The notes under the pieces were generated by a model. The model made no database searches and was not told the origin of the DNA. It saw only the letters and a program-made list of their open reading frames with translations. 64,000 bases of DNA. It comes from Acinetobacter kookii (lineage in GTDB: Bacteria; Pseudomonadota; Gammaproteobacteria; Pseudomonadales; Moraxellaceae). The stretch lies in NCBI RefSeq assembly GCF_900096895.1, contig NZ_FMYO01000002.1:1-64000 (forward strand), given 5' to 3'. The stretch's first letter is position 1, and every line of letters starts with the position of its first letter. This document shows, piece by piece, positions 33,835 through 36,446 of this stretch. The translations under genes were made by a program, and so were the position numbers.

Positions 33835-34386
33835 TTACTTTTTCTTTTTAGGACCAAGCAGCATACCCATTTGACGACCTTCCATTTTTGGCGCTTGTTC
33901 AACTACACCGACTTCAGCCACATCTGCTTCAACTTTTTGCAATTGAGCCAGACCAAGCTGCTGGTGAGCCATTTCACGACCACGGAAACGTAAAGTGATT
34001 TTTACCTTGTTGCCTTCTTCAAGGAACTTGATAATGGCACGTAATTTTACGTTGTAATCACCAACATCAGTCGCAGGGCGGAGCTTGATTTCTTTCACCT
34101 GTACTTGATGCTGTTTTTTCTTCGCTTCTTTCTGCTTTTGCTTCAGATCAAACAAATGCTTGTTGAAGTCCATGATTTTGCACACAGGTGGCTCAGCATT
34201 TGCAACAATCTCAACCAGGTCAAGATCGGCAGCTTCAGCTGCACGTAAAGCATCATTTAAGCTTACGATGCCTTTTTGCTCGCCATTTTCGTCTACAAGA
34301 CGGACTTCTTTCGCACGAATTTCATCATTCAAAGCAGGACGGTTTGATTTGTTACCGCCCTGTTGATTACGGTCAGGCTGTTTAAT
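33835..34386 (-). CDS. infC: Translation initiation factor IF-3 (AUU start)
   Basis: 183 aa. Binds the 30S subunit, keeps subunits apart and proofreads start codons. Two domains are visible: N-terminal [22 protein letters not shown] and C-terminal [44 protein letters not shown]. An internal TTG at 34332 is a possible start, but the frame extends upstream to ATT at 34386 ([14 protein letters not shown]), with GGAG 8 bases before it inside the thrS stop region. An AUU start is the hallmark of infC and allows autoregulation by IF-3. It follows thrS by 5 bp. Confidence 0.95.
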
Positions 34387-34391
34387 CGCTT

Positions 34392-36314
34392 TTACTCCAC
34401 AATGTACCGGCCGCGTTCGGCAACGGCTGCTTTCACTAGGTCAACGAAGGCATCGATTGACATAGTACCCAAATTTTTTCCTGAGCGGGTACGCACATTT
34501 ACTGTACCTTCCTCTACTTCACGGTCCCCAAGTACCAGCAAGTAAGGAATACGCTCTAAAGTACGTTCACGAATCTTAAAGCCGATTTTCTCATTTCTCA
34601 AGTCGGAAATGGCACGAATTCCGTTTTCTTTAAGTTTAGCGACGACTGACTCACATGCTTCCGCTTGAGAATCGGTAATGTTCATTACACATGCTTGTGT
34701 AGGCGCCAACCAAGGTGGCATAAAGCCTGCATAGTGTTCAATCAGTATACCAATAAAACGTTCGAAACTGCCAAGAATTGCACGATGTAACATAACAGGC
34801 TGATCACGGTCGTTATCTTCTGTTACGTAAGATGCTTCCAGACGCTCCGGCAAGTTGAAGTCACACTGAATGGTACCGCACTGCCATACACGGCCCAGAC
34901 AGTCTTTCAATGAGAATTCAATCTTCGGACCGTAGAATGCGCCCTCACCCGGTTGCAGTTCCCATTCAAGACCAGCAGCATTCAAAGCATCTGCCAGAGA
35001 TTTTTCCGCCATGTCCCAAAGTGCATCATCACCGACACGTTTTTCCGGACGTGTAGAGAGTTTCATTTGAACATCTTCAAAACCGAAGTCTTTATAAACG
35101 TCTAAAGTCAGTTTAATAAAGTCTGCAACTTCAGTTCCAATCTGTTCTTTGGTACAGAAAATGTGCGCATCATCCTGGGTAAAGCCACGCACACGCATAA
35201 TACCGTGTAATGAACCTGATGGCTCGTTACGGTGACATGAACCAAACTCAGCCAGACGGATTGGCAGGTCACGGTAAGATTTCAGCCCCTGGTTGAACAC
35301 CTGTACGTGACATGGGCAGTTCATTGGTTTTACCGCATAATTACGGTTCTCTGAATGCGTGGTGAACATGTTGTCTGCATAGTTTGCAGCATGTCCTGAT
35401 TTTTCCCAAAGCGTGAAATCGACCACTTGTGGGGTACGGATTTCAAGATAACCATTCTCTTGCTGAACTTTACGCATGTACTGCTCAAGTACCTGATAAA
35501 TGGTCCAGCCGTTTGGATGCCAGAACACCATACCCGGTGCTTCTTCCTGCATATGGAACAAGTCCAGGGCTTTACCGATTTTACGGTGATCGCGCTTTTC
35601 AGCTTCTTCAATACGCTTGATGTAAGCTGCAAGCTGTTTCTTGTCCGCCCAGGCTGTACCATAGATCCGTTGTAGCTGTTCGTTCTTCGCATCACCACGC
35701 CAGTAAGCACCCGAGATTTTAGTGAGTTTGAACGATTTTAAGAATTTGGTATTCGGTACGTGCGGACCACGGCACATATCCAGATAGTCCTGATGGTAGT
35801 ACAAGCCCATTTGTGTTTCTTCAGGCATGTCTTCAATCAAGCGGAGTTTGTATTCTTCGCCACGTGCAGTGAATTCTTTGATGACTTCATCACGCGGTGT
35901 CATTTTTTTGATGACATCATAGTCTTGGTCGATGAGCTTTTTCATGCGCTCTTCGATTGCCGCCAAGTCGTCTAGAGTAAATGGACGCGGCATCCAGATG
36001 TCATAGTAGAAACCCTCTTCAATGACCGGACCAATCACCATTTTTGCTTCTGGGAACAATTGCTTAACCGCATGGCCAACCAGGTGTGCACAAGAGTGAC
36101 GAATGATGTGTACACCATCTTCATCTTTAGGCGTGATAATTTGTAAGGTTGCATCTTCGGTGATGAGATCAGACGCATCAACCAAGCGATCGTTTACACG
36201 ACCAGCAACTGTATTTTTTGCAAGACCCGGACCAATGCTCAGTGCAACGTCCATCACAGATACGGCTTGATCAAACTGTTTTTGATCGCCATTTGGCAAA
36301 GTGATAATTGGCAT
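34392..36314 (-). CDS. thrS: Threonyl-tRNA synthetase
   Basis: 640-aa class II synthetase. The order is: N-terminal TGS domain (1-60), SAD editing domain with [16 protein letters not shown] and the later CxxxH-type site ([11 protein letters not shown]), catalytic core with motif 2 ([30 protein letters not shown]), zinc ligands including Cys in [10 protein letters not shown], motif 3 ([21 protein letters not shown]), and the anticodon-binding C-terminal domain. The AAGGA ribosome-binding site lies 6 bases before the ATG. A hairpin in the leader resembles a tRNA-Thr anticodon arm. Confidence 0.98.
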
Positions 36315-36330
36315 AAAAAATCCTTAAGGA

Positions 36331-36359
36331 GTGATGCCCCGTACCATAGGGCATGTCAC
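36331..36359 (-). promoter_or_regulatory. thrS leader operator: tRNA-Thr anticodon-arm mimic
   Basis: Read on the minus strand, 29 bases fold as GTGA..CAC outer pairs, a 2-base bulge (CA), then TGCCC/GGGCA and a closing U-G pair around the 7-base loop A-U-G-G-U-A-C. Numbered like an anticodon loop, this places U at 33, GGU at 34-36 and A at 37, i.e. the anticodon of tRNA-Thr(GGU). The hairpin ends 17 bases before the ATG, just upstream of the ribosome-binding site, the position used by the ThrRS autorepression operator in E. coli. Confidence 0.65.
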
Positions 36360-36400
36360 CGCGAGATTATGATCGAGGGAGAACCTCAAAAGATAAAAAC

Positions 36401-36446
36401 GGTGGATAAATAAAAATCGCCTAGAATTTTACACGTCTTATCCACA
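36401..36446. other. Two DnaA-box-like sites in the thrS upstream region
   Basis: TTATCCACA (36438-36446, plus strand) equals the strong DnaA box and TTATCCACC (36401-36409, minus strand) differs by one base. They are in opposite orientation, 28 bases apart. The region lacks other origin features such as AT-rich 13-mers or a dnaA/gyrB context, so a regulatory or chance occurrence is more likely than an origin. Confidence 0.3.

Follow-up and report, generated by a model that had tools for sequence, protein, structure and literature searches.

The hairpin that precedes thrS in Acinetobacter kookii is very probably the main binding site (domain 2) for threonyl-tRNA synthetase (ThrRS) within a translational operator, with both binding and repression being argued by analogy to E. 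coli. This operator was most likely inherited rather than re-invented, because its geometry, its place, the CACU box behind it and the ribosome-binding site (RBS) are all shared with E. coli, two bases of its loop, G35-U36, are invariant, and its stem covaries across the Gammaproteobacteria. As judged from the leaders compared here, the loop keeps what the enzyme would read, namely G35-U36, whichever threonine anticodon these bases happen to belong to.

The thrS leader hairpin and its conservation in Acinetobacter

The window analysed in this study (the whole stretch of 64,000 nt) carries thrS on its minus strand from 36314 to 34392, and the leader of the gene ends in ...AUCUCGCGGUGAC AUGCCCU-AUGGUAC-GGGGCAU CACUCCUUAAGGAUUUUUU AUG. 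The middle portion, minus strand 36354-36334, is a hairpin of seven pairs, including one U-G, around the 7-nt loop AUGGUAC. In anticodon numbering, this loop reads A32 U33 G34 G35 U36 A37 C38, which puts the anticodon-like triplet GGU (36343-36345, minus strand) at positions 34-36. Sequence and fold agree on this point with the earlier note, which had described a minus-strand hairpin with a 7-base loop, U33, GGU and A37. The span proposed there, 36331-36359, contains the hairpin, but also includes 5 and 3 flanking bases beyond 36334-36354, and the thrS ATG, then placed 17 bases away, actually lies 16 bases from the end of that span and 19 nt downstream of the last base of the stem. The CACU box (36330-36333, minus strand) directly follows the stem on its 3' side, while the AAGGA of the RBS (36321-36325, minus strand) begins 8 bases past it. 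The minimum free energy (MFE) of the hairpin is -9.1 kcal/mol, and comparison with shuffled sequences yields z scores of -1.97 for the 21-mer, -1.55 for the 41-mer and -1.99 for the 141-nt leader; by itself, this folding energy is unremarkable and only mildly better than that of the shuffles. That the hairpin is more than a chance structure is evident from the conservation of its loop, because G35-U36 is found in 146/146 Acinetobacter leaders.

These leaders derive from a ThrRS search of 149 Acinetobacter genomes, 147 of which were matched, with 146 of these having the gene start. For each leader, the best 7+7+7 hairpin at most 75 nt from the ATG was chosen on pairing alone, with the loop ignored. 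G35, U36 and a purine at position 37 are present without exception (146/146 each) and U33 is present in 137 loops, being absent from the other 9/146, while base 34 is G in 55 leaders, U in 51, C in 36 and A in 4. When the loop was cut out of the leaders and the rest used for a FastTree tree, this tree required at least 21 changes at base 34 and at least 7 at base 33, counts that can be inflated by errors in a tree built from such short leaders. Thus, of the U-G-G-U-A loop that the earlier note expected to be fixed, G35-U36 never changes, but base 34 varies freely, and the fact that changes within the loop spare G35-U36 is what the identity rules of ThrRS predict. The same pattern bears upon the suggestion that the hairpin is purely structural, acting in the ribosome-binding region as a standby site or in mRNA stability and containing no ThrRS site. 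A structured leader and a hairpin only 8 nt before AAGGA would suit such a role, yet it offers no reason for the preservation of G35-U36 in 146/146 leaders while positions 32, 33, 34 and 38 vary, and we therefore regard it as quite improbable.

Both flanks of the hairpin are conserved to the same degree as its loop. Immediately 5' of it, the lineage-specific AUCUCGCGGUGA box (36356-36367, minus strand) occurs as AUCU[CU]GCGGUGA in 146/146 Acinetobacter leaders, and the 3' flank CAUCACUCCUUAAGGA and the CACU box after the stem are equally invariant (146/146 each). Around the RBS, the 3' flank includes UCC-UUAA-GGA (36321-36330, minus strand), a possible 3-bp mini-hairpin that is invariant in the genus. 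Stem covariation within Acinetobacter alone is slight, because five of the seven pairs never vary and pair 7 is mismatched in 35/146 leaders (34 C-A and one C-C); pair 5 is U-G in 127 leaders, C-G in 17 and A-U in 2. The exact hairpin of seven pairs and a 7-nt loop appears in the MFE folds of 10/17 diverse Acinetobacter leaders, with the loop drawn differently or lost in the remaining 7/17, and a real tRNA-Thr(GGU) arm, when folded alone, likewise misfolds by MFE.

The gene downstream of this leader (34392-36314, minus strand) comprises 640 codons and encodes a full-length ThrRS with TGS, SAD, catalytic and anticodon-binding domains. Residues N575, R583, E600 and R609, which we take to be those that contact the anticodon in E. 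coli ThrRS, are conserved in an alignment to E. coli 1QF6. The N-terminal domains are kept as well, and these are described in a passage of PMC7373986 as being needed for repression. Some Acinetobacter possess a second ThrRS that is ~45% identical to the first. The leaders of such paralogous genes lack the operator hairpin in 3/3 cases (L258, L259 and L260), two of these leaders being alike. Directly after thrS lies infC, the frame of which extends to an AUU codon 5 bases past the thrS stop (34384-34386, minus strand); in E. coli, AUU is the non-AUG codon from which IF3 is started and through which it regulates itself.

Relationship of the loop to tRNA-Thr

The earlier note had taken the loop for a mimic of a single isoacceptor, tRNA-Thr(GGU), with the CCC/GGG stem as part of the likeness. 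In the A. kookii genome, ARAGORN read 68 of the 69 tRNA hits, the single unread hit being 87 nt long, and found one tRNA-Thr gene with GGU and two with UGU, of which tRNA-Thr(GGU) does carry a CCC/GGG arm. This part of the comparison stands, but the loops of the genus do not follow this tRNA. All four NGU triplets are found within Acinetobacter, and 8/8 other Acinetobacter genomes that have non-GGU loops share 72/72 bases of the tRNA-Thr(GGU) gene (AGU in G097, G101, G125 and G140; CGU in G003, G004 and G010; UGU in G019). For G140, the one AGU-loop genome in which nearly all tRNA hits were read, ARAGORN calls tRNA-Thr with GGU and UGU only and none with A34 (76/79 tRNA hits). Similarly, the CCC/GGG stem is no mark of mimicry, as other leaders make do with different stems, for instance GUGAUCC/GGAUCAC or AUGUUUG/CAAACAU. 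Isoacceptor mimicry was accordingly rejected: base 34 drifts, an AGU loop exists in a genome in which no matching tRNA-Thr was called among the hits read, and the loop is not a copy of a particular tRNA, because the tRNA-Thr(GGU) gene remains constant while base 34 varies.

Distribution and covariation across the Gammaproteobacteria

As a control, the thrS leader of E. coli K-12 was taken from NC_000913.3. Its domain 2 reads GUGAUCU-UUCGUGU-GGGUCAC, followed by CACU and UAAGGA, and has the same 7+7+7 geometry as the A. kookii hairpin, in agreement with the comparable E. coli leader with a CGU loop that the earlier note mentioned. E. coli and Acinetobacter have in common a U33-N-G-U-R loop, CACU directly after the stem and a UAAGGA RBS. 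They differ in the loop triplet (GGU here, CGU in E. coli) and in their stem sequences, the E. coli hairpin sits two bases further from the ATG, and both the 5' box of Acinetobacter and the UCC before its GGA are missing from the E. coli leader.

Among 81 leaders, consisting of 80 named thrS loci plus E. coli and including many close Pseudomonas relatives, the element is present in 74, and it is absent or unclear in the other seven (L005, L052, L054, L056, L068, L079 and L080). The kept rows have G35-U36 in 74/74 cases, CACU in 72/74, U33 in 69/74 and A37 in 64/74, while base 34 is G in 54, C in 13, U in 4 and A in 3. Covariation, which is hardly visible inside Acinetobacter, is clear at this level. 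In an alignment of 47 distinct gammaproteobacterial hairpins, six of the seven pairs changed on both sides, and 97.3% of cells are paired, a percentage that is the value most flattered by the preselection of rows for pairing, with 7/81 dropped. The covariation score of 0.570 compares with 0.264 +/- 0.020 in shuffles and was reached by 0/500 of them, and scores fell to 0.03-0.12 when the partner was slid by 1-3 columns. Further pair types, by contrast, are not unusually numerous, with 43/500 shuffles having as many.

A covariance model of the element has matches in 102/369 genomes of the class, that of A. kookii included, and none in 267/369, under filter settings by which weak matches are lost. 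Each of the 30 best loci lies before thrS, as do 12/13 other best-in-genome sites that were read (the exception being G343), and 0/3 second sites within a genome do so. A. kookii itself has one clear match (E 3.3e-5), the hairpin of the window being itself a row of the model; its other matches, with E values of 6.2 and 8.0, look like chance. One further genome contains an orphan near-copy of its own thrS operator hairpin with some flanks kept (L318 1499-1525; G453:C18:33398-33424), and no ORF of at least 80 aa starts close behind it on that strand; this copy is possibly a remnant or a decoy RNA. Oceanospirillales XeTr1 (L075, ~1380-1495) has two tandem domain-2-like hairpins, each with CACU, the one closed by CUGGUAA and the other by AGAGUAG; upstream of them follows another loop, AGAGUAU.

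Closer to Acinetobacter, the best hairpin carries G35-U36 in 16/20 leaders that were taken from further genera of the same family. In L345, inspection by eye shows the element although the automatic pick was another hairpin, and it was not seen in L343, L350 and L351. In two of the 16, both of genus code g281, an additional NGU hairpin further upstream was picked as the best (L340 107-127, loop CUUGUAU; L341 106-126, loop UUCGUAU), and the usual hairpin is visible further 3' in each. A second GGU-bearing arm was also observed just upstream of the usual hairpin in L315 (~1450-1520, G183).

These distributions speak to the origin of the element. If the element had arisen independently in this genus by mimicry of tRNA-Thr(GGU), this would suit the GGU loop in the window and the CCC/GGG arm of the tRNA-Thr(GGU) that the genome encodes. 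However, E. coli, Pseudomonas, Marinomonas, Halomonas and others agree with it in geometry, in position, in the CACU box and in the RBS, related forms occur in further genera of the family, and the Acinetobacter leader tree calls for 21 or more switches of base 34, all of which render such an origin very improbable. Of the two histories that the earlier note had offered, it is the mechanism being older than the exact loop that agrees with a shared element of varying base 34, whereas a renewed origin is contradicted by the match to E. coli in position, size, 3' CACU box and RBS.

A second arm and the remaining leader

In the thrS operator of E. coli, the anticodon arm is imitated twice. We scanned for a second arm as a 5-bp hairpin with a 7-nt loop upstream of domain 2. 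A GU loop was found in 30/30 Pseudomonas leaders, many of which are near-identical (CUGCC-ACUGUGA-GGCAG and variants, with one CGU and one AGU), and this second mimic (e.g. L010, L016 and L029) starts 56-72 nt upstream of the first, again with a variable base 34. Among non-Pseudomonas leaders, a GU loop was present in 8/44, hardly above the next dinucleotide, TT, with 7/44, and in Acinetobacter it was present in 9/146, below TT (29) and CT (15). Since the scan also misses domain 4 of E. coli itself, the absence of a second arm in Acinetobacter is not proven by this result. From the -10-like element to the box, GU is entirely missing in 4/146 Acinetobacter leaders, and in 23/146, these four included, it is missing except within a CCGUU. 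At a place comparable to that of E. coli domain 4, the MFE fold of the A. kookii leader predicts a distal hairpin (36357-36404, minus strand), in which no NGU loop was recognised. Pair counts over the whole leader structure in 40 Acinetobacter leaders lend it modest support (7 pairs changed on both sides vs 3.1 in shuffles, with 1/500 reaching the observed number; slid, 1 to 5), and it is missing from the consensus fold of these 40 leaders.

That consensus fold includes an extended GGUGA/UCACU stem that would join the AUCUCGCGGUGA box to the CACU box. The GG of the former is kept in 21/21 aligned Moraxellaceae rows. As a feature of all Moraxellaceae, this extended stem was rejected, given that base 16 is not G in the two Psychrobacter rows L009 and L022 nor in the rows from genus codes g277, g279, g281 and g284; at most GGU/ACU is common to the Moraxellaceae rows, one of which has GGA, and the stem has no covariation support. 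Possible partners for the GGU of the box are the ACU within CACU and an upstream CACCG. In genus codes g278, g282 and g286, the UCC/GGA at the RBS is kept although the loop between differs, and this mini-hairpin showed no covariation. A likeness of AUCACUCCUUA to the 3' end of 16S rRNA was set aside as a chance addition to the CACU box and the RBS.

Further upstream, the extended -10-like element UGUAAAAU (36426-36433, minus strand) is present in 134/146 leaders, 128 of which have it 115-125 nt before the ATG. With a start site assumed from this element, the thrS leader would be ~106 nt long; a consensus promoter scan called none. Leader control of thrS is a trait shared with Gram positive bacteria, which use T-box leaders for this gene, and in a T-box the leader RNA binds tRNA and acts on transcription. 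Leader hairpins ahead of an aminoacyl-tRNA synthetase gene, together with a T run near the ATG, could therefore bring to mind a transcription attenuator or a T-box-like switch. Even so, a terminator-like site was not found, and the window has no Rfam family at gathering score, the T-box model included, with only five chance-level matches to other families below that score in the thrS leader. Such a switch is accordingly extremely improbable. The E. coli thrS operator likewise has no match in Rfam 15.

Discussion

Based upon the E. coli system, the operation of a ThrRS operator in A. kookii can be pictured as follows. Whenever the cell contains more ThrRS than tRNA-Thr can occupy, the anticodon-binding domain of the enzyme would grip the hairpin, and the bound enzyme would exclude the 30S subunit from the adjoining RBS, causing thrS translation to drop. 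Abundant free tRNA-Thr would presumably draw ThrRS away again, and translation would resume. Only G35-U36 would need to be read in such an interaction, which would leave base 34 free to evolve. For E. coli, passages in PMC7373986, PMC11088916, PMC9976931 and PMC3858243 describe that bound ThrRS blocks the 30S subunit, that the level is set by competition with tRNA-Thr, and that a version of the operator with a methionine anticodon is placed under the control of MetRS. Comparable cases of a synthetase binding an anticodon mimic within an mRNA are known from yeast, a eukaryote (cf. PMC6542539 and PMC9956033), with AspRS being the case treated in passages of PMC9976931 and PMC7373986.

Among the PMC titles and abstract openings surveyed, none concerned the thrS operators of Acinetobacter or Pseudomonas, and passages of PMC3997798, PMC5723415 and PMC2659441 contributed nothing on the subject. 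A 2002 crystal-structure paper reportedly states in its abstract that the mechanism also applies to a subset of the Gram-negative bacteria, and for this reason the spread of the operator itself is probably not new. One could go further and propose that the operator was rebuilt in Acinetobacter and its near relatives, such that one mimic was kept and the second lost, a family-specific AUCUCGCGGUGA box came to clamp CACU, a UCC-NNAA-GGA mini-hairpin arose at the RBS, and ThrRS binding would switch RNA pairing in place of a two-armed grip. We offer this proposal tentatively, as it is rather unlikely to be correct in full.

Despite the lack of an Rfam 15 match for the E. coli operator, a small model now finds the operator in the aforementioned 102/369 genomes of the class. 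The features that we consider worthy of specialist attention are the independence of the loop from any one isoacceptor and the family-specific flanks. In this way, a textbook case from E. coli becomes a natural experiment, in which an identity rule of a synthetase can be read from evolution.
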